This document shows, piece after piece, positions 2,100 through 33,705 of a DNA stretch of 64,000 nucleotides. This DNA is from an uncultured Bacteroidales bacterium. Lineage in GTDB: Bacteria > Bacteroidota > Bacteroidia > Bacteroidales > UBA932. The notes under the pieces were generated by a model. That model was not told where the DNA came from, searched no databases, and saw only the letters and a program-made list of their open reading frames with translations. Where the stretch lies: the NCBI GenBank assembly GCA_947305645.1, contig CAMZEC010000005.1, positions 1-64,000 on the forward strand, read 5' to 3'. A program made the position numbers and the translations under genes. Numbering within the stretch: position 1 is the stretch's first letter; the number at the start of each line of letters is the position of its first letter.

Positions 2100-4703
2100 T
2101 TACAATTGCTTGGTGACGGAATAGCTGCCTTCGAAGTAATCCATAACCTCGGTCTCGCCTGGCAGCGTGACGGAGGCAATAGCGTCTTTGGGAACCGTGA
2201 AGTTCCATGTCCAGCTGTCTCCGTCGAAACGCCAGGAACTCTTGATTGTGCCGGCGGCGGAGTCGTATTCGGCATCCAGCGAACCCAGGCGCTTGTCGGG
2301 CACGGGACGCATTATGATGTGCTTGAAGCCCGGTTCGGCAGGGTCGGCGGCAATGCCAGCGGCGGTCTCCCAGATCCACTGGCACACGCATCCGTAGGCG
2401 TAATGGTTGAAGCTGTTCATGCCCTTCGGGCCCATTCCGTGCTCAAGCGTGTAGCTGTTCCAACGCTCCCAGATGGTGGTGGCGCCGTTGTCCACGGAGT
2501 ATAGCCAGCTGGGGTTCTTATGCTGGAACAGGAGGTTCCAGGCGATGTCCGCCATGCCGTTGTCGGTCAGCGTGCCCATAAGTATGGAGGTGCCCAGGAA
2601 GCCCGTCTGCAGGCATCCGTCGTGGGCGGCGAAGTTCTCGCGCAGGCGTGCTTTCATGGTCTCCAGCGCCTCCCCTTCCACCAGCCGGTTCTTAAGGGCG
2701 AACAGGGCCGGCGTCTGCATGGAGTTAAGAATTTCCGTCTTGAAGCTGCCGTCGGCGTTCAGGAAACGCTCCCTCAGGTAGGCGCGGGCGGCATCTTCCA
2801 TGTCCTGGTAGCGTGCGGCGTCGCGACCGGTGGCCGCAGCCATGTCACGCATCATGCCGGCGTCTATGGCCCAGTAGGACGCGCCCAGGTAGGTCCAGTA
2901 CTCGTAGGCGTCCGGACGTATGATGCGGTTGCCCTTCTTGTCCTGCGTGAAGATGCCCTTCTCGTGCGACTCCAGCGGCTCGTAGCTGAGCCAGTCGGCC
3001 CACTGGTAGTTGCCGTTCTCGTGGGCAAGGGTGGCGTGGTCGTACCTGGTGTCGTTGATATGGTTGATCCACAGGTCCATGGACTCCCAGTTCTCATCTA
3101 CGATGGCGGTGTCGCCGAACTGCTTCCAGACGGTCCAGGGGACGATTACGCCGGCGTCGGCCCAGCCGAGGCGGCACATGCTGGTGGGCTCGGCGCCATA
3201 CTGGGCCAGCGGGGCCACTCCCGGGAAGGCGCCCGAAGGCGTCTGGGTGTCGCGCATGTCGCGCATCCACTTGTGGAAGAAGCGGTCGGTGTTGGCGAAG
3301 AAGGTGCCGGTCTCGGAGAACACCTGCGTGTCGGCCGTCCAGCCCAGGCGCTCGTTGCGCTGCGGGCAGTCGGTAGGCACCGACAGGTAGTTCGACCTCT
3401 GGCCCCAAAGGGTGTTGGATATAAGCTTGTTGACGCTCTCGTCGCCGGTGCTTATGCGGCCGGTCTCCAGGTTGCGGGCGATGGACGTTACGGGTATGGA
3501 CTCTATGAAGCGGAAGGTCACCTCGCCCGTGGCGGTGACAGAGATGAGGCGGTAGCCGAAGAAGGTGCAATGGGGATAATAGCTCACGTAACCCTTCTGC
3601 GGGCCGAAGGTGTACTCCAGTATCATGCCCTGGTCGGGGATGCGGAGGTTCAGGCGGTGGCAGCTGCCCTCGGGGCCGTCCATGCCGCGGCTCCTGGCGC
3701 CGTTGCCGTCGTTCAGCAGCTCGGCGGGCAGGCAGGTGAGCACCGTACCTTCGGCGGCTTTGAAGGAGAAGCAGGGCACGGCGGCGGCGTTCTGGCCGAA
3801 GTCCACGACCAGCGTCTCGCCGGGGTTGAGCTTCACTTTCTCGCCCGGCTTGTACTCACGCAGGACGACCACCTTGCCGTACTCCTCCTCGCTTGCGCCC
3901 TCAACGTCTTTCCATACGTAGCTGCGCTGCGGGGCCATGGCAAGGTCGCGGCGGAGGTAGATTTCCGCACCGTCGGTGGGGAAGATTTGTCCGTTGAATT
4001 CGGTGTTCACCTCCGGCAGGCCGAGATCCAGGGGCGTTTCGTAACCGGGCAGCTCGCGGGCGTCGTAGACCTCGCCGTCAAGTATGGCGGCGTGCTTCAC
4101 CGGACCGGCGATTCCGGCCCTCCAGTTGTCCGCGGTGGTGCCTATGAGCTCAGTGGTGCCGTCTTCGTATGTGAATTCAAGCACGCTGCGGAAGGCGCAC
4201 TTGCGGCCAATCATGCCTTCGTGGCCCGGAGGCGTCACGATCTTGTCCGCCCACCAGCCGGGGGTCACCTGGGCCGAGAAGAAATTGTGCTTTTTCCGAC
4301 TCTTTATTACCGCATCCGTGACATCGTAGGTGTAGGAATACTTGGTCTTGCCCCAGTGGGTGAAGCCGGGCTTGAGCACCTCCGTGCCTATGGGGCGGTC
4401 GTTCACGTACAGCTCGTACACGCCCAGGCCGGTGGTCATCCACTTCACGCTCTTCACGCGCTTTTCGTTCACCACGGACGCCAGGAACCAGCTGGCCCCG
4501 TCGGCCGCGCGGCAGTTCTTATTGGATTCCACCTTGCCCTCGATTACTGGCGCATCGGCTGCGGAAAGCCACTCGGAGCACTCCCATGCGCTGTCCGGAA
4601 GGGCTTCGGTGAGCTTGCCGGCAGGAGCCGTAGGGGTGGAACAGGAAATTATCAACAGAGACGCCAGGATGGCGGACAAAGAAATATTCAGGGTGCTGTT
4701 CAT
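2100..4703 (-). CDS. Alpha-L-rhamnosidase, GH78-like, lipoprotein signal
   Basis: Lipobox-like LLIISCS at the N-terminus; GH78-like body (DCPQRNERLGWTADTQVFSETGTFFANTDRFFHKWMRDMRDTQ). Confidence 0.92.
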   Translation of the reverse strand: MNSTLNISLSAILASLLIISCSTPTAPAGKLTEALPDSAWECSEWLSAADAPVIEGKVESNKNCRAADGASWFLASVVNEKRVKSVKWMTTGLGVYELYVNDRPIGTEVLKPGFTHWGKTKYSYTYDVTDAVIKSRKKHNFFSAQVTPGWWADKIVTPPGHEGMIGRKCAFRSVLEFTYEDGTTELIGTTADNWRAGIAGPVKHAAILDGEVYDARELPGYETPLDLGLPEVNTEFNGQIFPTDGAEIYLRRDLAMAPQRSYVWKDVEGASEEEYGKVVVLREYKPGEKVKLNPGETLVVDFGQNAAAVPCFSFKAAEGTVLTCLPAELLNDGNGARSRGMDGPEGSCHRLNLRIPDQGMILEYTFGPQKGYVSYYPHCTFFGYRLISVTATGEVTFRFIESIPVTSIARNLETGRISTGDESVNKLISNTLWGQRSNYLSVPTDCPQRNERLGWTADTQVFSETGTFFANTDRFFHKWMRDMRDTQTPSGAFPGVAPLAQYGAEPTSMCRLGWADAGVIVPWTVWKQFGDTAIVDENWESMDLWINHINDTRYDHATLAHENGNYQWADWLSYEPLESHEKGIFTQDKKGNRIIRPDAYEYWTYLGASYWAIDAGMMRDMAAATGRDAARYQDMEDAARAYLRERFLNADGSFKTEILNSMQTPALFALKNRLVEGEALETMKARLRENFAAHDGCLQTGFLGTSILMGTLTDNGMADIAWNLLFQHKNPSWLYSVDNGATTIWERWNSYTLEHGMGPKGMNSFNHYAYGCVCQWIWETAAGIAADPAEPGFKHIIMRPVPDKRLGSLDAEYDSAAGTIKSSWRFDGDSWTWNFTVPKDAIASVTLPGETEVMDYFEGSYSVTKQL

Positions 4704-4715
4704 ATTTGCTCGATA

Positions 4716-7001
4716 TTATTCGGCCACGAAGCTACGCACTTCACTGGTGCCATACTTGTGAATGGACGGGTCGCTGATTTGCCTGCATTCCCAGCTCACA
4801 TAGTAGTAATATGTGGTTCCGGGAGTGAGTCCTGTATAGGTATGGTAGCCGTTGCGGCTGATAGACGTTGACGGATAATAGGTGGGATCGGAAGACAAGT
4901 GAGCCCTGTAGGTGTATTCCATATAATTCTCAAGGTCCTCGGCTTCCAGGAACTCGGAATGCACATTCGCGGAACCGCCTCCAAGAACGGTAGCGGAGGT
5001 GTGCGCCGTCCAAACATGGCCGGCACGCGTTCCGCCCTTGACGGGACGTACGTTGCATTTCGTATAGCCGCGGGTGGTGCCGTCGGCGTAGTCTGAAGTT
5101 CCTGAATGGACATCTGCGCATAAGGCCCGGTTAGGGAGGCTGACAACGTCAATATTCAGCGAAGATGTCATCATAAAAGTACTTGAAGACTGCTTGGAAC
5201 TGCCGGTATAGTATCCGCATGCCGGGAAGGTTATGCTGTTCCCGTTTTTCTTGCTTGTATAGACATAACCGCCCTCGATATTGCTTCTGTCGCAGTTTCC
5301 CATCATTTCCGCAAAGTCGGCCGACGTGGGCGTGCGCCATTCGCCTCCCAGACAGACGGTAGCGGCATCGTCTTCCGCATCCAGGACTGTCTTCATATCC
5401 ATGAGACCGTCCTGCCCGTAAGCGGCACAGGTGGAGTACTTCCTGGCGTATCCGGTATTGTACGATCTGTACTGGTTCCAGTATTTGCTACCGTAGTAAT
5501 AGTTGTCGAATTCCTCGGTGGGACGCACTTCACCCCAGGCAAAGTAGTATCCGGCCGTGAGAGGGGCGTCGCTGCCCAGATTGAAGGTTGCCCACAGGGT
5601 GCCGCTAGGCAGGCCCAGGTCGACCAGTCCGGGTTCGACGTAGTCATAGTGCGTCAGGGTCGTATAACTGAAGTAGCTGTACTCGGGATAGAACGCAACG
5701 CCGTCTATAACCATGAATGGCATGAAACAATACTCGGTGCCTGGCGTGAGTCCTGTGACTGAATAGGTCACGCGGCCTTCTCCGTCAGGGGTCAGCGGGA
5801 TGATGTCTCCGGGATCGGCAGTATCCACTTTTACGGTTTCGAAGGGGTCGGGGGTCGCCGGGTCGAATGCAATAAGGCCGTAAGTTACAGATGTATGGGG
5901 CTTTCCGCCCAGGTCGAAGAGCAGGTGAGCCTCTATCGAGGTTTCTCCGGTAACGTAGCTCTCGTTCGTGAACGTAAGGTCGTAATGCTTCTCCAGTGTA
6001 ACGCTGAAGGTGGTAATGCCACTTTCGGGGAATTCTATAGTCCTGCCGAGGGCATCCAGGTCTACGCGCTTTTCATACCTCTCCGGTTCGCCTCCTTTGC
6101 CGCCCTTCCCGTCGTTAACGGTAACGTCGAATTTGAACCATCCGGACAGGGTTCCGGACAGGGTGCGGAGCCATAGAACGGCATTTCCGCTCCCGTCAAC
6201 CGTAACTCCTTCAGGATAGAAACTTATTAGCCCGCTGGGCTTGTTGAAAAGGCCCGTTTTGCCGAGCGTGGGGTCATACTCAACCATGTAGGCTCCCGGC
6301 CATGTCATGGGGAAGGTGAAGGTGCCGCTTTCCAGCGTCCTTCCGGCAGGAAGGCCTTTAAGGGTAATCTTGGCTATGGTTCCCACACGGGCAAAGCGCA
6401 GCGACAGTTCGTTGGGCTGGGTGGCGGAAGTCACTACCTGCGACACCATCAAGTCGGCATTGGGGTCGAAGGAATCGGCCGTGGGGTTCTGACTGGTGGG
6501 CATATTCACAAGCAGTGTGAAATGGTCAGGCGTGCTTGTGTCGCCCCAGTGTGACTCCCATTCGGCCTGGCTGTCTCCCGTCCAATTAACGGAGTACAGG
6601 CTGCCGCTGGGATATACGCCAACATATCGGAAATCACCTCCGGTGGGGTTTTCCGCCAGGGAAGTCCTGTCTGCAAAAGTGATGTTGAAGCTCGCTGTAG
6701 CGGCATCGGCTGCAAGGGCGTCGGACGCTTCAATCTGGTATGGAGCAGGGCGCGATTTCTCATCCATGCTGTAATTGCCCTGAATGACCTCCGCTACGTC
6801 TATCTGGTCACCGGCGGACCAGTTGGTATGGTAAGTGAGGCCGTCGACCTGTATGGCTGTGCGCGTGCCTGCTTCTCCGGCGTGTACCGTCATTGTGTGG
6901 ACGGGTGCGGTGGATGATTGAACGGTGATTTCAGCCTGGCAAGCCGATACGAGAGCCAGGACCGATATGATAAAAGCTATTCGTTTCATAGGTCCGCTCA
7001 T
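4716..7001 (-). CDS. Surface lipoprotein, fimbrillin-like N-terminus with FISUMP/DUF1566-like C-terminal part
   Basis: MKRIAFIISVLALVSACQAE lipobox; VDLGLPSGTLWATFNLGSD...YFAWGEV...GGEWRTPTSADF...CNVRPVKGG. Start is 7001 (MSGPMKR) or 6989 (MKR). Confidence 0.8.
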   Translation of the reverse strand: MSGPMKRIAFIISVLALVSACQAEITVQSSTAPVHTMTVHAGEAGTRTAIQVDGLTYHTNWSAGDQIDVAEVIQGNYSMDEKSRPAPYQIEASDALAADAATASFNITFADRTSLAENPTGGDFRYVGVYPSGSLYSVNWTGDSQAEWESHWGDTSTPDHFTLLVNMPTSQNPTADSFDPNADLMVSQVVTSATQPNELSLRFARVGTIAKITLKGLPAGRTLESGTFTFPMTWPGAYMVEYDPTLGKTGLFNKPSGLISFYPEGVTVDGSGNAVLWLRTLSGTLSGWFKFDVTVNDGKGGKGGEPERYEKRVDLDALGRTIEFPESGITTFSVTLEKHYDLTFTNESYVTGETSIEAHLLFDLGGKPHTSVTYGLIAFDPATPDPFETVKVDTADPGDIIPLTPDGEGRVTYSVTGLTPGTEYCFMPFMVIDGVAFYPEYSYFSYTTLTHYDYVEPGLVDLGLPSGTLWATFNLGSDAPLTAGYYFAWGEVRPTEEFDNYYYGSKYWNQYRSYNTGYARKYSTCAAYGQDGLMDMKTVLDAEDDAATVCLGGEWRTPTSADFAEMMGNCDRSNIEGGYVYTSKKNGNSITFPACGYYTGSSKQSSSTFMMTSSLNIDVVSLPNRALCADVHSGTSDYADGTTRGYTKCNVRPVKGGTRAGHVWTAHTSATVLGGGSANVHSEFLEAEDLENYMEYTYRAHLSSDPTYYPSTSISRNGYHTYTGLTPGTTYYYYVSWECRQISDPSIHKYGTSEVRSFVAE

Positions 7002-7150
7002 TAAAAATCACCTCCGTTGATAATATCACCGATAGAACCGGCCTCGCCCTCGGAACCGGGCACGATGGATGAAGAAAAGCCACTTGTGGCAATCAAAGAC
7101 AAAAGCCGGATTTCCAGTATCCGGACTGCAGGTTTGGTGTAATTTACCAT
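7001..7150 (-). CDS. Micro-ORF (49 aa) directly upstream of and overlapping the lipoprotein start
   Basis: Hand translation: MVNYTKPAVRILEIRLLSLIATSGFSSSIVPGSEGEAGSIGDIINGGDF*. Stop TAA overlaps the downstream ATG (TAATG). Not in the supplied ORF track. Confidence 0.6.
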   Translation of the reverse strand: MVNYTKPAVRILEIRLLSLIATSGFSSSIVPGSEGEAGSIGDIINGGDF

Positions 7151-7697: not shown

Positions 7698-7814
7698 AGA
7701 TTCTTCGCTGCGCTCAGAATGACAACTCTGTCATCCGCCTCTTTCTGTCATCCGGCCTCTTTCTGTCATCCGGCCTCTTTCTGTCATCCTGAGGAGCGAA
7801 GCGACGAAGGATCT
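7698..7814. repeat. Composite intergenic repeat: reverse AGATTCTTCGCTGCGCTCAGAATGACA, ~18-bp tandem TCTGTCATCCGGCCTCTT, then forward TGTCATCCTGAGGAGCGAAGCGACGAAGGATCT
   Basis: Read directly in sequence 7698-7724, ~7730-7781 and 7782-7814. Confidence 0.9.
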
Positions 7815-8766
7815 ACTTCCTGGCAACAGCGCGTTTGGCGGCGGCGACGAGGCCGGCGGCGTCGAAGCCCCAGGCCTTCATCAGCTCGGCGGGAGTGCCC
7901 GACTGGCCGAATTTGTCCTCACCGTTAACGAACTCGATGGGAGTAGGCAGCGACTTGGCGGCAACGCCTGCCACGGCCTCTCCGAGACCGCCTGCCCAGT
8001 TGTGCTCCTCGGCCACTACGGCGCAGCCGGTCTTCTTCAGGGACGCCAGAATCGCCTTCTCGTCCAACGGCTTCACGGTCGCCACGTTCAGCACCTCGGC
8101 GCTTATGCCCTCGGCCTCAAGGGCCTCGGCGGCCTGCAGGGCCTCCCACACCAGGTGACCGTTGGTAATGATGCTCACGTCCTTACCCTCGTTCAGGTTG
8201 TACACCTTGCCGATCACGAAAGGCTCGTCGGCGGGGGTGAAGTTGGGCACGGAGGGGCGTCCGAAGCGGAGGTACACGGGGCCGTTCCACTCGGCGGCGG
8301 CAACGGTGGCGTTCTTGGTCTGGTTGTAGTCGCAAGGCACCACGACGGCCATTCCGGGCAGCGCGCGCATGAGAGCAATGTCCTCCATGGTCTGGTGGGT
8401 CGCGCCGTCCTCGCCGAGGGTGATGCCCGCATGGGACGATGCTATCTTCACGTTGGTGTGGCCGTACGCCACCTCCTGACGCAGCTGGTCATAGACGCGG
8501 CCGGTCACGAACTCGGCGAACGAGCCGATGAAAGGCACCTTGCCGGTGATGGCGAGACCTGCCGCCACGCCTACCATGTTGGCCTCGGCGATGCCGCACT
8601 GGATGAACCTTTCGGGGAATTCCGCAGCGAAGGCGTCCATCTTGAGGGAGCCCTTGAGGTCTGCGGTGAGAGCGACAACGCGCCCGTCCTTGCGTCCGGC
8701 CTCAACGAGCCCTGCTCCGAAGCCGCTTCGGGTATCTACCTTACCCTGGTCTGTATATTTCTTCAT
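7813..8766 (-). CDS. Transketolase, C-terminal subunit
   Basis: DGATHQTMEDIALMRALPGMAVVVPCDYNQT; transketolase pyrimidine-binding and C-terminal domains. Confidence 0.95.
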   Translation of the reverse strand: MKKYTDQGKVDTRSGFGAGLVEAGRKDGRVVALTADLKGSLKMDAFAAEFPERFIQCGIAEANMVGVAAGLAITGKVPFIGSFAEFVTGRVYDQLRQEVAYGHTNVKIASSHAGITLGEDGATHQTMEDIALMRALPGMAVVVPCDYNQTKNATVAAAEWNGPVYLRFGRPSVPNFTPADEPFVIGKVYNLNEGKDVSIITNGHLVWEALQAAEALEAEGISAEVLNVATVKPLDEKAILASLKKTGCAVVAEEHNWAGGLGEAVAGVAAKSLPTPIEFVNGEDKFGQSGTPAELMKAWGFDAAGLVAAAKRAVARK

Positions 8767-9672: not shown

Positions 9673-11469
9673 ATGGAAATGGACCGAATTCGCAATTTCT
9701 GCATCATAGCTCATATAGACCACGGCAAGAGTACGCTGGCGGACCGCCTGCTGGAGCTTACCAGCACCCTGGCGGCGCGCGACATGGAAAACCAGGTGCT
9801 GGACGACATGGACCTGGAGAAGGAGAAGGGCATCACCATCAAGAGCCACGCCATCCAGATGCGCTACATGTACAAGGGCGAGGAGTACAGGCTCAACCTG
9901 ATCGACACTCCGGGCCACGTGGACTTCTCCTACGAGGTCTCGCGTTCTATCGCTTCCTGCGAGGGCGCGCTGCTGGTGGTGGACGCCTCGCAGGGCGTGC
10001 AGGCGCAGACCATTTCCAATCTCTATATGGCCATAGACCACGGGCTGGAGATCATCCCCGTACTGAACAAGATAGACATGGAGTCCGCGCAGCCGGAGCT
10101 GGTGACCGACGAAATCTGCGACCTTCTGGGCTGCGCGCCGGAGGACGTCTTCAAGGTCTCCGCCCGCACCGGCGAAGGCGTGCCGCCCATCCTGGACGCC
10201 ATCGTGGAGAAGATTCCCGCCCCTGCCGGCGACCCGTCCGCTCCCCTGCAGGCGCTCATTTTCGACTCCGTCTTCAACTCCTTCCGCGGCGTAATCGCCT
10301 ACTTCAAGGTGGCAAACGGCTGCGTGCGCAAGGGCGACAAGGTGAAGTTCTTCGCCACTGGCATGGAGTACGAGGTGGAGGAGGTGGGCTCGCTGAAGAT
10401 GAAGCTCATCCCGGGCACCGAGGTGGGCTGCGGCGACGTGGGCTACATCATCACGGGCATCAAGAGCGCCGTGGAGGTGAAGGTGGGCGACACCATCACC
10501 CACGTCGCCAACCCCTGCTCGCAGGCCATCGCCGGCTTCGAGGAGGTGAAGCCGATGGTGTTCGCAGGTATGTACCCCGTGCAGGCGGACAAGTTCGAGG
10601 AGCTGCGGGCCGTACTGGAGAAGTTCCAGCTGAACGACGCCTCCTTCGTGTACGAGCCCGAGAGCTCGCTGGCGCTGGGAAGCGGCTTCCGCTGCGGCTT
10701 CCTGGGCCTGCTGCACCTGGAAATCGTGCAGGAGCGCCTCTTCCGCGAGTTCGACATGGACGTCATCACCACGGTACCGAACGTCTCATATAAAGTATAT
10801 ACGATGCAAGGCGAGGTGCTCGACGTGCACAACCCCTCCGGCCTGCCGGCGCCGACTCTCATCGACCATATCGAGGAGCCGTACATCCGCGCGCAGATAA
10901 TCAGCAAGTCCGAGTTCTTCGGGCCCATCATGAAGCTCTGCCTGGACCGCCGCGGCACGCTGGTGAGCCAGCACTACATCACCGCCGAGCGCGTGGAGCT
11001 CAACTACGACATGCCGCTGAGCGAGATAGTGTTCGACTTCTACGACAAGCTGAAGACCATTAGCAAGGGCTACGCGTCCTTCGACTACCACATCACCGGA
11101 TACCGCCCGGCTAAGCTCGTGAAGCTGGACATTCTGCTGAACGGTGAGCCCGCCGACGCCCTGTCCACCCTGATTCACGAAGACAACGCCTACACCTTCG
11201 GCCGCAAGATGTGCGAGAAGCTCAAGGACCTCATCCCCCGCCAGCAGTTCGACATCCCCATCCAGGCTGCCATCGGCGCCAAGATCATCGCCCGCGAGAC
11301 CGTAAAGCAGGTGCGCAAGGACGTCACCGCCAAATGCTACGGCGGCGACGTAACCCGCAAGAGGAAATTGCTCGAAAAGCAGAAGGAAGGCAAGAAGCGC
11401 ATGCGCCAGATCGGCACCGTCCAGGTGCCGCAGAGTGCGTTTATGGCCGTGCTGAAGCTGGACAGCTGA
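9673..11469 (+). CDS. lepA: Elongation factor 4 (LepA)
   Basis: [26 protein letters not shown]...[15 protein letters not shown]; full-length 598 aa. Confidence 0.99.
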
Positions 11470-14096: not shown

Positions 14097-15473
14097 ATGA
14101 AAAAATCTATAGTAGTTTTAGCACTAATCTCGCTGACGCTGCAAACAGCCAATGCCCAGGAAACGGTCTATCTGACCCTGGACCAGGCCCTGCAGACGGC
14201 CCTGAGCGAGAACGCATCCGTCCGCATCGCGGACCTGGAAATCGAGCGCACCGGATATGCCCGTAAAGGCAGCTACGCCGCACTCTTCCCGCAGATTGAC
14301 GGCTCCGGCTCCTATCAGCGCACCATCAAAAAACAGGTAATGTACATGGACTTCGCCATCGGCGGCGGCTCGAGCGACGGCTCCGAAGGGGGCGGTTCGG
14401 TCTCCCGCGACGGCATCGAGGTGGGCCGCTGGAACACCTGGTCCACAGGCATATCGGCCAGCATGCCGCTGGTTAACGCACAGCTCTGGAAGAGCCTGCA
14501 GATAAGCGACCAGGACGTGGAGCTGGCGGTGGAAAAGGCACGCGCCTCCCGCCTGGAGACCGTCACCCAGGTGAAGAAGGCCTTCTTCACCGTCCTGCTG
14601 GCCAAAGAGGCGCTTAACGTTTATCAGTCGGTCTACGAGAACGCACGCGAGAACCTCGAGCTCACGCAGAAGAAGTACAACGCGCAGCGCGCCTCGGAGC
14701 TGGACCTCACCCGCGCAAAGACCACACTCGCGAACGCCGTGCCCAACATGTACGACGCCGCCAACTCGGTGGAGCTCGGCCTGTGGCAGCTGAAGGCCGT
14801 CATGGGGGTGGACCTGGACAGCAACATAGATGTCGCTGGCACCCTCAAGGACTACGCGGAAATGATGCTGGAGGCCCCCGAAAGCGGCTCCGACCTCAGC
14901 GGCAACTCCTCCCTGAGGCAGCTGGCCATCCAGGCGGAGCAGCTTGCGAACACCGTAAAGATGCAGCAATACGCCTTCCTGCCGTCGCTGGCAGTGGGCT
15001 TCAACTACAGCATCAACGCTATGGCCAACGACTACAACTTCAGCCAGTACAAGTGGTCCCCCTACTCCTACGTGGGCCTCAGCCTCAGCATCCCCATCTT
15101 CTCCGGAGGCAAGAGACTGAATGCAGTGCGGCAGGCAAAGGTGCAGGCGGCCGAGCTGGACATCCAGCGTACGAACACCGAACGCCAGCTGCAGATAGCC
15201 ATACGGCAGTACCTCGGCACCATGGACACCGCCACCAAGAGCTACGCCTCCGCCGCAAGCGCAGTGGAGACCGCCCAGAAGGCGTACTCCATCGCCCGCC
15301 AGTCGTACGACGTGGGCCGCAGCACCCTGACCGACCTCAACGACGCCCAGCTGGCGCTCACCCAGAGCGAGCTCGGCGTATGCCAGGCAATCTTCAGCTA
15401 CTTGTCTGCCAAGTCCGACCTCGAGGGCACCCTTGGCGCAGATTTCATAGAAAACAGCAACACAAATGAATAA
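14097..15473 (+). CDS. TolC family outer membrane efflux protein
   Basis: MKKSIVVLALISLTLQTANAQ signal; OEP repeat features; followed by adaptor and RND pump. Confidence 0.93.
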   Translation: MKKSIVVLALISLTLQTANAQETVYLTLDQALQTALSENASVRIADLEIERTGYARKGSYAALFPQIDGSGSYQRTIKKQVMYMDFAIGGGSSDGSEGGGSVSRDGIEVGRWNTWSTGISASMPLVNAQLWKSLQISDQDVELAVEKARASRLETVTQVKKAFFTVLLAKEALNVYQSVYENARENLELTQKKYNAQRASELDLTRAKTTLANAVPNMYDAANSVELGLWQLKAVMGVDLDSNIDVAGTLKDYAEMMLEAPESGSDLSGNSSLRQLAIQAEQLANTVKMQQYAFLPSLAVGFNYSINAMANDYNFSQYKWSPYSYVGLSLSIPIFSGGKRLNAVRQAKVQAAELDIQRTNTERQLQIAIRQYLGTMDTATKSYASAASAVETAQKAYSIARQSYDVGRSTLTDLNDAQLALTQSELGVCQAIFSYLSAKSDLEGTLGADFIENSNTNE

Positions 15474-21197: not shown

Positions 21198-21329
21198 ATG
21201 AAATATATGATGACAATGCCCTACAAAAAGCCGGAGCTTTCTTTAGAAGAAATAGAGCCGGACATTCTGATTTGCCAAAGCATGGGTCTCCCCGGAAGCC
21301 TCGAGGACACATATGATGAACCTATCTAA
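21198..21329 (+). CDS. Micro-ORF (43 aa) upstream of fimbrillin-like lipoprotein
   Basis: Hand translation: MKYMMTMPYKKPELSLEEIEPDILICQSMGLPGSLEDTYDEPI*. Not in ORF track. Confidence 0.6.
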   Translation: MKYMMTMPYKKPELSLEEIEPDILICQSMGLPGSLEDTYDEPI

Positions 21330-21342
21330 AGAGTATCGGACA

Positions 21343-23238
21343 ATGAAAAAGTTTTACATTCTTGCTCTTGCACTAGCGGCCTGTTCCTGCAGTGTGGAAG
21401 AACCTGGGACTTCCGTAACTCCTGACGAAAAGGAAGTCATCTTGCGCGCCGTTTACAGCGACGACGAAACAAAGACCGTCCGACAGGCTGACGGCAAGGT
21501 TTTCTGGTCTCCCGGCGAGGCTATCAGCGTTTTGAGAAAGACCGGCTACAGCAGCAATACACAAGTAGGTTGCTATAAGTTCGTCTCTACTAATACCGAG
21601 CCTCAGGCTTCCGTAGAATTCCGCGGCACGCTGCCTGATACGGGTTACGATCAGATTTGGGCGATATATCCTTATGACGAGCAAAACGCCCAGATCCGCG
21701 ACAGCTATGATGTTTTCAGCGGCAGTAGCTGGCTTCCGTTCCATCAAACTGCGGTGGCTGGTACATTCCCGGACCGGCTTTACATAGCGGCAGCGACAAC
21801 CACGACCAACGAACTGGTATTCAACCATCCGCTGGGCGGTATAAAATTTTCGCTGACCACCCCCGGGATCACAAAAGCCTATGTCAAGGCTTTTGATAAC
21901 GACCGCGTCGCCGGAATTGTCAGTTTGGGTTATAACTCCAACAGCGGCAAAATATATGCGGATTGGAGCAACCAGAATATTCCGGAAGAATCTATAATAG
22001 ATTTAGTTTCGGCAGACGGCAGTCCTTTCGAAACCGGGGCGGATTACTACTTCGTCATGCTTCCGCATAACTACAAAGGATTCGACTTTCTGTTCGAGCG
22101 CTCCGACGGGAAAATCCTCCGTCGTAAAATAGACAAGCAGGTGGAAATAAAACCTGCATGTTTCCGCACCCTCATGGAGGCAGACAGCGGCCTTGAGTGG
22201 GTGGATAATGTACTCTCCCTTTCGGCAACGAGTTTCGATGCATCGGATTACGCCTGTTCCTTCGACGTTGTCGGCACATCTTTCTCGGACATCAACGTTA
22301 CGCCCGACTGCGATTGGCTTGTCCTTTCCGACTCCAAGGGCGACACCAAATTCGGCCGCACTTACACTTTCCTTGTAAAGGCTAATTACGGGGCGGAGCG
22401 CAATGGTACCATTTCCTTCACCTCTGACGGCCAGACCGAGACTTTCACCGTCACTCAGGCCGCCTGCTCAAGGGCTGTTATCCCCGTCAGGCATAATTCC
22501 GGCGTCATTTTCACATCCACGACCTGTCAAAAGAGTTTCTCTATGACTAATGCCTTCGAGGCTATAAAAACGGAAATGGGCGACTCTTTCAACTATGCGG
22601 TAATCCATGCGAAAGACAGCAAGCTCTACTCATTCCCCACAGTTTTGAGCGGATGTTACTCTGTTAGCGCGCATCCCAATGGCTTTATCGACGGACGCAC
22701 AAAGATACTGAACAATATAAGCGACGCAGAAAAGATGCTGACCGATATCAGGTCTGCCATTTCCAACACCAACGATTATTACCGGCCCGTTACCTCTATC
22801 GGCGTAGCTTCCACGGTTGACGACGACAACATCAAGGTTGACGTGGATGTATACGGTGCGATGGCCGGATCTTACTGCATTGTAGCGATGCTGGTTGAAA
22901 GGAACGTGAGTATACAGCAGTATCCCCAGTCGGGCGGCGGCAAACACGATTACATCGCGCGTATCATGTTTACCTCCGGTCTATATGATTACGAAACGTT
23001 CAGTATCCCGTCCGATGGCGCCACAACTTCGTTTACTTATAACGGAACGCTGAAAAACACCTACAACCGTGACAATTTGTTCGTGTTTGTCTTTGTCTTG
23101 AATACCTACGGAACGCCGCCGAATCTTAATTTACTTGTCCTGCCAGACCATTGGACCAGTGGTAACAGAATGTGGTGGTACAACGACAACAGCCGCATGG
23201 CGCCTATAGGTACCAAGGTTGACCCGGAGCTGCAATAG
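21343..23238 (+). CDS. Fimbrillin-like lipoprotein with BACON-like domain
   Basis: MKKFYILALALAACSCSVEE lipobox; TKTVRQADGKVFWSPGEAISVL fimbrillin-like motif; BACON-like VTPDCDWLVLSDSKG...TISFTSDGQTETFTVTQAA. Confidence 0.8.
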   Translation: MKKFYILALALAACSCSVEEPGTSVTPDEKEVILRAVYSDDETKTVRQADGKVFWSPGEAISVLRKTGYSSNTQVGCYKFVSTNTEPQASVEFRGTLPDTGYDQIWAIYPYDEQNAQIRDSYDVFSGSSWLPFHQTAVAGTFPDRLYIAAATTTTNELVFNHPLGGIKFSLTTPGITKAYVKAFDNDRVAGIVSLGYNSNSGKIYADWSNQNIPEESIIDLVSADGSPFETGADYYFVMLPHNYKGFDFLFERSDGKILRRKIDKQVEIKPACFRTLMEADSGLEWVDNVLSLSATSFDASDYACSFDVVGTSFSDINVTPDCDWLVLSDSKGDTKFGRTYTFLVKANYGAERNGTISFTSDGQTETFTVTQAACSRAVIPVRHNSGVIFTSTTCQKSFSMTNAFEAIKTEMGDSFNYAVIHAKDSKLYSFPTVLSGCYSVSAHPNGFIDGRTKILNNISDAEKMLTDIRSAISNTNDYYRPVTSIGVASTVDDDNIKVDVDVYGAMAGSYCIVAMLVERNVSIQQYPQSGGGKHDYIARIMFTSGLYDYETFSIPSDGATTSFTYNGTLKNTYNRDNLFVFVFVLNTYGTPPNLNLLVLPDHWTSGNRMWWYNDNSRMAPIGTKVDPELQ

Positions 23239-30133: not shown

Positions 30134-30256
30134 ATGTCCCAAACAAAATTATATTCGCCACCAGTGTGTGATGTGTCTGAATCATACCTGGTGGATATAT
30201 TATGTACCAGCCCAAGTGCAGGCGGGAGTGAAGATATAGGATACGAAGAATGGTAA
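30134..30256 (+). CDS. Micro-ORF (40 aa) upstream of large lipoprotein
   Basis: Hand translation: MSQTKLYSPPVCDVSESYLVDILCTSPSAGGSEDIGYEEW*. Not in ORF track. Confidence 0.6.
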   Translation: MSQTKLYSPPVCDVSESYLVDILCTSPSAGGSEDIGYEEW

Positions 30257-30270
30257 TAAATAACTCGAAA

Positions 30271-33200
30271 ATGAAAGCTAATAATATATTTATTTTGATA
30301 TCGGCGGCCGTAGCTGTTTCCGCTTGTGTTAAAGATGTTGAGCAAATTGAGCAAATTGGGCAACAGGTAACTATTTCCGCGTCACAAGAAGGTTCAGCAG
30401 GCACAAAAACCACCGTACAAAATGACGGCACCAAGGTGTATTGGGAGCCCGGTGATGCAATTAGCGTTTTTTATAATGGAACTGGCAGTAAATTCATCTC
30501 ACATAATACAGAGTTAGCTTCTATTGCCCAGTTCTCCGGCACTTTTTACGGGTTGGTCGGAAGCACTGAAGGATCAGTTTTTACGGAGAACATATGGGGC
30601 CTGTACCCATATCGGGAAGACGCATCATCTGACGGGCACTCAGTTTCGACCGTTCTGCCATCTTCACAAACTGCGCGAGCGGGGAGTTTTTCTCAAAAAA
30701 CTCATATTACCCTTGCCTGCTCACACGGGCTCAATCTCGCGTTTTATAATGTTACCGGCGGCGTCAGATTCTCTCTCACCAACCAAGGAATCAAGAAAGT
30801 AGCTTTTGAGGGATTAAATGGAGAATCTTTGGCCGGATCAATAAAAATAGCGTTCAGCGACGGTGTCCCGGTAGTATCTGAAATCTCAGAAGGAGAAAAG
30901 TGTGTGACTCTTTACGCTCCCGATAACGGAACTTTCGAAACCGGTATCTGGTATTACTTGTCGCTACTTCCGGGCGAACTGAAAACTGGATTTAAATTAA
31001 TCTTTTTCACTGATACAGGAGCCGGCCAAAGGCGATTCGAAAAGACCGTGACGATAAAACGGGGAATTTTCGGCAACCTTCCAAACGTTGACGAAGGTGT
31101 TACCTTTAAAAGCGAACCCGATGCAATTGACTTGGGCCTGTCCGTAAAATGGGCCTCTTGCAATGTAGGTGCAATAGACCCGGAAGATATTGGAGGCCGC
31201 TATGCATGGGGAGAATTAGACAGCAAGTCATTTTTTGACTGGGACAATTACAAGTGGTGCAACGGCACATATAATTCATTGACAAAGTATTGCACCAATG
31301 CTGAATATGGCACCGTAGACGGAAAAACCAGACTGGACGACGAAGATGACGTCGCCCTGGTGACATATGGAGGTAAATGGAGAATGCCTGATACGTTCGA
31401 GTTGAACGAATTATGGGAACTCTGCACGTGGACCAAGACCAATGTTGGCACTGTTTCCGGCTATACGGTCACAGGTCCCAATGGCAATTCAATCTTTATA
31501 CCAAATTGTGGACAAGCCGATGAAGGTGGACTGCATTTAACAGACGATGTGTTTATCTGGAGTGCCGAAACAGGTCAAATATATTCACATTATGGCACTT
31601 TGTTATCCACCTATTTCGGTTCGGTCACTCAGGGACTTCACAAACACGACGGTATTTGTGTAAGGGCAGTTTACGGAGATAAAAGTGCTCACGACGATAA
31701 ACATTATACCAATCTAAGCGAAACTGAAACCTCAAATTGTTATATTGTTTCAAAACCCGGTTATTACTGCTTCAATGCCGGAGTAAAAGGAAACGGTAAT
31801 GATCTTTTGGCAACTACACCCTACTCGGCAGAGGTTCTTTGGGAATCATTCGGCACCGATGTCAAACCTCAAGTTGGAGATGTTGTCAGCGATGTCCATC
31901 TGAATGGACAATACGTATATTTTAAATCAGGAAAAGACGGGAATGCGGTAATAGCCGTGAATGATGCCGGTGGGGACATCCTATGGTCGTGGCATATCTG
32001 GGTCTGCGATGGTTTTAACCCCGAACAGACTCAGCAAGCATATACCAACAATGTTGGCATAATGATGGACCGCAACCTGGGCGCCACCAAAGCAACGCCC
32101 AATACTGCAGAGGCGATGGGGTTAATGTATCAGTGGGGAAGAAAAGATCCCTTTATGAACGGAGCAAATTATTATAGCTCTAATTTAGCGTCTTCCACTA
32201 TATCATCCTGGCCGTATTACTCCATTGATCAATCCATTTTACAGGATAATACCACTCTAAACTACAGTATTGCAAATCCCACGACGTACATTACAAACGG
32301 CTCCGCCCCATTAGATTGGTACTGTATGGACAGTCAATATCAAAACGACGATCTTTGGGGACACAACGGAGATAAAACAGTTTATGACCCATGTCCTGCC
32401 GGATGGCGCGTCCCGCCAGGAGGCCCGAATGGTATATGGAGTGATTTTTCATCATCGACAGTTTCTCCCGAACAATACGGTATTATCTGCCCTCAAGGCA
32501 TTTGCGGAGACACGGCCTGGTATCCGCTTTCTGGAAACAGAGACGAATACAGCGGTAATATTCATTTCCAGGGAAGTATGGCTTGGTATTGGAGCGCAAC
32601 GCCGGTAAATAATTATTATGTCTATCTTCTGCTTCTAACATCAAGCGGCGCTATCAATAATCAAGTGTCCGACGGGCACAGGGTCAGCGGCCATGCTATT
32701 CGTTGCTGCAAGGACAAGGTGAATGTACCACAGTACACGGACCTCGGGTCAAAAGAGACGGCAAACTGTTATATGATAAACACTCCCGGCAGATATGGAT
32801 TCAACGCAACAGTTATAGGAAACGGTGATGCAGGCATTATTTCTGACGCCGGTTTCCATACATCTTCGAGTACAATCCATCCCTCCAAGGTGATTAAAAT
32901 TTGGGAAGATACTGAAAATGTGGTTTCCGACCTGTCTCTTGACAATGGCGTTATATCATTTAGCGCTTCGGACATCAAAGGAAACGCTTTGATTGCAGCT
33001 TTGGATGATAACGATTCAATCCTGTGGAGTTGGCATATTTGGAGAACAGACGACATAAACACCCATACTAACCCTAACGGATATGTTGTTATGGACAGGA
33101 ATCTTGGCGCAACGTCTGCGTCAGAATCGGAAACCGAAGCTTCTTACGGTCTGTTTTATCAATGGGGGAGGAAAGATCCGCTGACCAGACATGTATTTCC

Positions 33201-33705
33201 CCTATTGAAAAACACGCCACAATCCATTGAATACTCTATTCAGCATCCGGATACATACATTTATTCCGATATTGACGGTATTTATGATTGGCTTTCGGAA
33301 GAGAATGACAATTTATGGGGAAATCCTACAGGATATAACAAAGTTGATGATAAATATCCTTTAGGGCAGAAAACCATTTACGATCCATGTCCTCCGGGGT
33401 ATCAAGTTCCTCCTTATGATGTTTGGGACGGAATAAGTACTGAAAATGCCATTGAAAATAATACAGTCACCGGAAGAACATATGATGGTATTTGGTATCC
33501 CTATGCGGGTTGTATTTATTTCATGTCCATTTCTTCCTATAGTTATATTAACGCACTAGGGTATTATTGGACCAATTCACCTACTTCTGAAGACTCGCGA
33601 AAGTCTATCGATTTGGATCTTGGCGCTAATTTCTGGTATGTGAACCCCTACTTCCAGAATGCCAGAGCTCATGCATTTTCTGTACGCTGCATCCTAAAAG
33701 ACTGA
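30271..33705 (+). CDS. Large fimbrillin-like lipoprotein with repeated FISUMP-type modules
   Basis: KTTVQNDGTKVYWEPGDAISVF; duplicated SNCYIV/ANCYMI...ILWSWHIW...MDRNLGAT...QWGRKDP...YDPCP modules. Confidence 0.82.
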   Translation: MKANNIFILISAAVAVSACVKDVEQIEQIGQQVTISASQEGSAGTKTTVQNDGTKVYWEPGDAISVFYNGTGSKFISHNTELASIAQFSGTFYGLVGSTEGSVFTENIWGLYPYREDASSDGHSVSTVLPSSQTARAGSFSQKTHITLACSHGLNLAFYNVTGGVRFSLTNQGIKKVAFEGLNGESLAGSIKIAFSDGVPVVSEISEGEKCVTLYAPDNGTFETGIWYYLSLLPGELKTGFKLIFFTDTGAGQRRFEKTVTIKRGIFGNLPNVDEGVTFKSEPDAIDLGLSVKWASCNVGAIDPEDIGGRYAWGELDSKSFFDWDNYKWCNGTYNSLTKYCTNAEYGTVDGKTRLDDEDDVALVTYGGKWRMPDTFELNELWELCTWTKTNVGTVSGYTVTGPNGNSIFIPNCGQADEGGLHLTDDVFIWSAETGQIYSHYGTLLSTYFGSVTQGLHKHDGICVRAVYGDKSAHDDKHYTNLSETETSNCYIVSKPGYYCFNAGVKGNGNDLLATTPYSAEVLWESFGTDVKPQVGDVVSDVHLNGQYVYFKSGKDGNAVIAVNDAGGDILWSWHIWVCDGFNPEQTQQAYTNNVGIMMDRNLGATKATPNTAEAMGLMYQWGRKDPFMNGANYYSSNLASSTISSWPYYSIDQSILQDNTTLNYSIANPTTYITNGSAPLDWYCMDSQYQNDDLWGHNGDKTVYDPCPAGWRVPPGGPNGIWSDFSSSTVSPEQYGIICPQGICGDTAWYPLSGNRDEYSGNIHFQGSMAWYWSATPVNNYYVYLLLLTSSGAINNQVSDGHRVSGHAIRCCKDKVNVPQYTDLGSKETANCYMINTPGRYGFNATVIGNGDAGIISDAGFHTSSSTIHPSKVIKIWEDTENVVSDLSLDNGVISFSASDIKGNALIAALDDNDSILWSWHIWRTDDINTHTNPNGYVVMDRNLGATSASESETEASYGLFYQWGRKDPLTRHVFPLLKNTPQSIEYSIQHPDTYIYSDIDGIYDWLSEENDNLWGNPTGYNKVDDKYPLGQKTIYDPCPPGYQVPPYDVWDGISTENAIENNTVTGRTYDGIWYPYAGCIYFMSISSYSYINALGYYWTNSPTSEDSRKSIDLDLGANFWYVNPYFQNARAHAFSVRCILKD

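Follow-up and report, generated by a model that had tools for sequence, protein, structure and literature searches.

The window, that is, the whole stretch of 64,000 nucleotides analysed here, carries on its minus strand a 49-aa micro-ORF (7001..7150; sequence MVNYTKPAVRILEIRLLSLIATS / GFSSSIVPGSEGEAGSIGDIINGGDF). Its position, sequence and TAATG end are exactly those given in an earlier note on this DNA. The proposed leader (7082..7150, minus strand) contains a YxxP motif and an IATS boundary, with a Tyr-to-Ser distance of 19 residues. The proposed core (7004..7081, minus strand) is an acidic Gly/Ser tail of 26 residues with a GGDF end, which the orthologs keep and which would be set free by cleavage. 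The micro-ORF lies directly upstream of a lipoprotein gene (4716..6989, minus strand; lipobox LVSAC), and the two had been described as overlapping. However, the probable start of the lipoprotein is Met 6989 (MKRIAF...), 11 nt past the micro-ORF stop, with 7001 as an alternative start. The TAATG overlap is also absent from the ortholog in genome G110 (77% identical), where TAA is followed by 12 nt (AAGGGCAGGATT) and ATG. The lipoprotein possesses a fimbrillin-like N-domain (104 bits with the N-domain HMM) and did not match Mfa_like_1 (PF13149) in Pfam. Its structure, predicted from single-sequence input, reached a pLDDT of 37, too low to be used, and the sole match of its profile in the PDB, the signal-peptide stretch of BamM, was discarded. 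At 7720-7820, the window also holds a short tandem stretch of about three copies of ctgtcatccggcctcttt running into tcatcctgaggagcgaagcgacgaaggatct, which resembles a dispersed intergenic repeat.

Two sister micro-ORFs are located on the plus strand, so that the window contains three in all, each directly upstream of a lipoprotein gene, as previously noted. The first (21198..21329) has several candidate ATGs, the shortest form beginning at 21216, and consists of leader MPYKKPELSLEEIEPDILICQS and core MGLPGSLEDTYDEPI. It precedes a lipoprotein gene (21343..23238, plus strand) whose product combines a fimbrillin-like N-domain (119 bits with the N-domain HMM) with BACON and Omp28 (Pfam). The second (30134..30256; leader MSQTKLYSPPVCDVSESYLVDILCTS, core PSAGGSEDIGYEEW) is followed by a gene (30271..33705, plus strand) for a protein with a lipobox and a FISUMP (Fib_succ_major)-like region, for which the Pfam matches to Fib_succ_major and Lcl_C are sub-threshold. 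The probable starts of these lipoproteins, 21343 and 30271, lie 13 and 14 nt past the respective micro-ORF stops. The label 'fimbrillin/FISUMP-type' previously given to the downstream proteins is appropriate for the common N-terminal domain but not for the whole proteins, as the BACON and Omp28 composition of the protein starting at 21343 illustrates.

The 49-aa micro-ORF is a real gene and belongs to a family without annotation. The earlier note had named a dN/dS ratio near 1 as one result that would speak against a gene; relative to the nearest ortholog, in G110, the ratio is about 0.11 (dN 0.098, dS 0.89; differences at codon positions 8/1/20), which favours a gene. The lipoprotein has close homologs at 62-77% identity in G110, G275, G332 and the rumen Bacteroidales MAG Tb.RUG.210, and the micro-ORF is kept upstream in all lipoprotein orthologs found. 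The peptides of G275 and Tb.RUG.210 are identical; as the two may be one strain or nearly so, they do not count as two fully independent cases. Across the family, the conserved Ser is encoded by both codon types (AGY 64, TCN 33). Searches of the peptides against Pfam and NCBIfam identified no family (best values 0.17 for lasso_cyano and 0.07 for DUF6128). The earlier note was right in describing a small protein that lacks annotation, is under selection and belongs to a family whose members are paired with fimbrillin-like surface lipoproteins. A spurious frame, open by chance, would fit the short length and the missing database family, but the dN/dS ratio, the orthologs, 103 non-redundant relatives and the lack of matches in reversed DNA leave practically no room for it, and we regard it as refuted.

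A first family profile, built from nine peptides, gave matches at E≤1 in 54 of the 61 genomes of the genus, and 16 matches at E≤10 in the window's own genome. The 7001-7150 peptide matched the family HMM at 1.4e-15, being itself among the training sequences of the model. The background was assessed in 864 kb of contiguous sequence, comprising the window and two 400-kb stretches that were not random: both contigs were known beforehand to contain at least one match, and one of the genomes, G031 (18 family matches), was known to be rich. Among 5,403 micro-ORFs in this sample, 13 scored at least 12 bits, five of them in the training set and eight outside it. No match of at least 12 bits was observed among shuffled peptides or among 3,834 micro-ORFs from reversed DNA. 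The pattern of YxxP, hydrophobic stretch, [CA]-x-S and acidic tail, to which the earlier note had drawn attention, therefore occurs far above chance (13 versus 0 in the controls). A literature search, in which subscription papers and preprints were outside the scope, returned no account of the peptide family or of its pairing with lipoproteins. Some arrangements of peptide genes deserve mention. In G044:C3:152000-160000 (~2644-2912, plus strand), two family peptides are encoded in tandem, the second starting 4 nt past the first stop, ahead of a 1003-aa secreted protein with no obvious lipobox. In G012:C74:15000-34000, three very similar peptides (minus-strand coordinates 6224-6395, 11121-11292 and 14927-15143) are spaced about 4-5 kb apart and each is followed by a lipoprotein, resembling local duplication of a peptide-lipoprotein cassette. 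G499 encodes peptides of the form MKKxYxxPxx...ATS... with an RRxGIWDED end and no lipoprotein after them; these may form a sister family distinguished by its tail.

The anatomy of the peptides was analysed in 101 alignable members. Since members were found by profile and filtered for [YFH]xxP, the presence of this motif is no evidence, but spacing, boundary and tail composition are. Tyr and Ser are 19 residues apart in 89 of the 101. At the boundary [IL]-[CA]-x-S, position -4 is always hydrophobic, position -3 is C (68%) or A (26%), and position -1 is S (97%); position -2, assuming a boundary after Ser, is variable (A 24%, Q 18%, T 12%). Signal peptidase I prefers small residues at -3 and -1, and the peptide boundary fits this rule. 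Past the Ser, conservation falls and the composition shifts abruptly. The tails comprise 10-33 residues with 25% D/E, 2% K/R and zero Cys. W or F is the last residue in about half of the peptides, and an aromatic residue is found within the last three positions in 78 of the 103 non-redundant members. Judged on the fixed spacing between YxxP and the boundary, the family has an RRE-binding motif, and the conserved residues are consistent with a leader-core precursor composed of this motif, a signal-peptidase-like site at fixed distance and a tail. YxxP is the characterised RRE-binding motif of lasso peptides (PMC12710340), and a PqqD-like RRE binds its leader with nM affinity and hands it to the protease (PMC5067487).

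Of the 61 genomes of the genus, 52 encode a PqqD protein, about 90 aa long. At most inspected loci, its gene lies in an operon with genes for an HprK-like kinase, an S26-type peptidase, an ABC exporter and sometimes an NTP_transf_5 protein, and this operon is conserved in the genus and in other families. In the window's genome, it is found on contig C40 (G000:C40) in the order kinase, peptidase, PqqD, ABC, so that both an RRE protein and a candidate leader peptidase are available there; the exceptions to this rule are G031, G007, G018 and G544. In the peptidase, Ser, His-Arg and GDG are invariant. One member matched archaeal-type signal peptidase I (1.8e-8, under the curated cut-off), and the peptidase profile matched signal peptidase IB in the PDB (0.0014).

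The co-occurrence of peptides and operon was quantified in 198 genomes of the order. With a confident peptide defined as E≤1e-8 and kinase presence as E≤1e-30, both set post hoc when the lists had already been seen, the kinase was found in nine of nine genomes with a peptide (7 genera, 7 families) versus 3 of the 189 others. At looser cut-offs, the values were 11 of 12 versus 17 of 186. The nominal p-values (2e-13 and 7e-10) overstate the association, because the models were partly derived from counted genomes, the cut-offs were post hoc and relatedness leaves the genomes non-independent. The association within the genus was no more than moderate (by Mann-Whitney, p 0.001; by Fisher, p 0.04), and incomplete genomes confound it. 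PqqD alone was rejected as a marker, being too common in the order and showing weak co-occurrence (p 0.06). Peptide and machinery are directly linked in G413, where the operon begins with the gene of a family member, some 36 nt in front of the kinase gene; kinase, peptidase, PqqD, NTase and ABC follow. In G501, a peptide-lipoprotein pair adjoins the operon, with a terminator-like hairpin between them, and elsewhere the precursor genes are dispersed. In G544, none of the components of the operon is present, and the peptide frame there is without an in-frame ATG, GTG or TTG start; we count this coincidence in favour of a shared machine. Counted against it are mismatches in other genomes: G031, in which, despite 18 family matches, kinase and peptidase were undetected and only an isolated PqqD was found; G007 (61% complete), with two matches and none of the three components; G018, with one borderline match; and G013 and G020, which have the operon but gave no match with the first peptide model.

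A recognisable lipoprotein start follows 90 of the 103 non-redundant members, at a median of 14 nt past the stop and with some overlaps. Among the exceptions, some members precede genes for an M20 peptidase, an MlaE permease and, in G037, a product that is not a lipoprotein, and the members of G413 have no lipoprotein downstream. This layout would suit a cis-acting leader cistron, whose translation controls the lipoprotein or couples to it by termination-reinitiation, the peptide being incidental or an arrest sequence. Bacterial leader ORFs so arranged are well known, and regulatory leader peptides (uORFs) likewise are short ORFs directly upstream of a gene, as is true in the genus. Nevertheless, we consider this explanation unlikely. 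The distance from stop to Met is the ordinary intra-operon spacing of the examined genomes; some members lie only 7-46 nt behind other cistrons and are therefore not simply first-cistron leaders; and of the G413 members, which dispense with the lipoprotein, one heads the PqqD operon. We detected no RNA structure signal across the micro-ORF (z 0.36) and no Rfam match. The leader motif, the fixed spacing and the co-occurrence with the operon would also be left unexplained, and uORFs differ in having neither a conserved leader-core anatomy nor linkage to a processing operon. Translational coupling, suggested by the earlier note on the basis of the TAATG junction, is a weak candidate for the main role of the gene and probably secondary, given that the overlap is not conserved, that some members are operon-internal and that those of G413 are without a lipoprotein.

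Downstream of each of the 13 high-scoring peptides lies a lipoprotein whose N-domain is fimbrillin-like and carries a TKT...W..GD motif. Conversely, the N-domain profile, whose training set overlaps about four of these 13, detected, at a threshold of 25 bits, 23 of the 536 predicted genes, of which 13 have a peptide and 10 have none; none of the 536 bore a peptide in the absence of the N-domain, though the simple gene caller had missed the lipoprotein at 30271. The C-terminal domains of the partners are diverse (GH18, pectate lyase, tyrosine phosphatase, BspA-type LRR, Omp28, FISUMP). Several partners match the fimbrillin-like proteins of Mfa_like_1 (4 of 38 at E≤0.01, the window protein not among them) and share the common N-domain with them, but most do not match, and their C-terminal parts are enzymes, LRRs, FISUMP and others. 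In G031:C16:1-400000, N-domain lipoproteins with and without a peptide of their own stand side by side, sometimes in the same operon; the gene at 216478, for example, has no peptide gene and that at 218986 has one. A comparison of operon positions (a peptide accompanies 13 of the 15 N-domain genes that lie far from the preceding gene and 0 of the 8 that lie close to it; Fisher 9e-5) was dropped as circular, because a gap of 2-15 nt leaves no room for a peptide.

The similarity of the tails covaries with that of the N-domains (97 pairs; Mantel r 0.40, with p at 0.0005, the lowest value that 2,000 permutations allow), whereas leader similarity showed no correlation with N-domain similarity in the same pairs (r 0.02, p 0.33). 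When same-genome pairs and similar N-domains were excluded, r for the tail was 0.36 to 0.25 with the same p. Plain co-inheritance should affect the leader as well, unless constraint on the leader itself has saturated it, in which case the covariation of the tail could partly reflect co-inheritance. The covariation and the single peptide gene per lipoprotein cassette would also be expected of a cytoplasmic microprotein that has no relation to the PqqD operon and serves fimbrillin-like lipoproteins as a chaperone or in targeting. Such a function seems improbable to us: lipoproteins leave the cytoplasm through Sec and fold outside it, and YxxP, the [CA]-x-S boundary, the co-occurrence with the kinase and the linkage in G413 would have no explanation.

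Taking these findings together, we think that the micro-ORF probably encodes an RRE-guided, RiPP-like precursor that shared machinery cleaves and exports and whose tail partners the adjacent lipoprotein. The stand-alone PqqD-fold protein, encoded elsewhere in the genome, would bind the N-terminal YxxP segment and hand the precursor to the signal-peptidase-like S26-type protease of the same operon, which would cut after [IL]-[CA]-x-S. The acidic tail may then be modified by the HprK-like kinase, together with the NTP_transf_5 protein where present, and would be exported by the ABC transporter of the operon. One operon would thereby serve many precursor genes scattered over the chromosome, and each freed tail would act with the fimbrillin-like N-domain of the lipoprotein whose gene directly follows its own, serving as a ligand, a cap or a partner in assembly. 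A point against the model is that it would be unusual for an S26-type peptidase to work in the cytoplasm. More tentatively, the family could represent a new class of RRE-guided peptides in Bacteroidales, in which one PqqD/S26-peptidase/kinase/ABC machine handles many dispersed acidic peptides, each with a dedicated extracytoplasmic lipoprotein partner, in a RiPP-type pathway for surface-protein assembly or signalling and not for antibiotics. If this is true, a RiPP-type pathway has been repurposed for building or tuning the Bacteroidales cell surface, and deletion of a single operon would test many peptide-lipoprotein pairs together. For PqqD-like proteins with no obvious peptide, the family offers candidate substrates with a checkable motif; short genes of the present kind are easily overlooked by annotation.

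The closest known systems are lasso peptides with a split B1 (PqqD-type RRE) and B2 protease, such as paeninodin, which share the YxxP leader, the stand-alone PqqD-fold RRE, the HprK-like kinase, the ABC exporter and sometimes a nucleotidyltransferase. This raises the question of whether the peptides give rise to ordinary macrocyclic RiPP antibiotics, as precursors of lasso-like bacteriocins that happen to be encoded near lipoproteins, since leader, PqqD, kinase and nucleotidyltransferase occur in lasso clusters too. We judge this to be quite unlikely. No asparagine-synthetase-like lasso cyclase (lactam synthetase) appears in the gene lists of the inspected operons, and it is not bacteriocin-like to occur in many copies per genome that all go with one lipoprotein domain. 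Compared with the paeninodin type, an S26-type peptidase replaces B2, there is no Thr at leader position -2, and the precursors are dispersed and paired with lipoproteins. A cyclase does occur in G013, in a separate lasso-like cluster (G013:C1:482000-494000) with asparagine-synthetase-like, sulfotransferase-like and PqqD-like proteins.

The kinase is also distantly related to those of the HprK-related kinase A systems (TIGR04352) and to ScmC of the SynChlorMet cassette (TIGR04249), systems that have PqqD-like partners as well. Its scores of 15.9-26.3 bits are far below the curated cut-offs of 200 (TIGR04352, for which it reached 15.9-20.3 bits) and 125 (TIGR04249). The operon described here differs from both in its partner genes and in the dispersal of its peptides.
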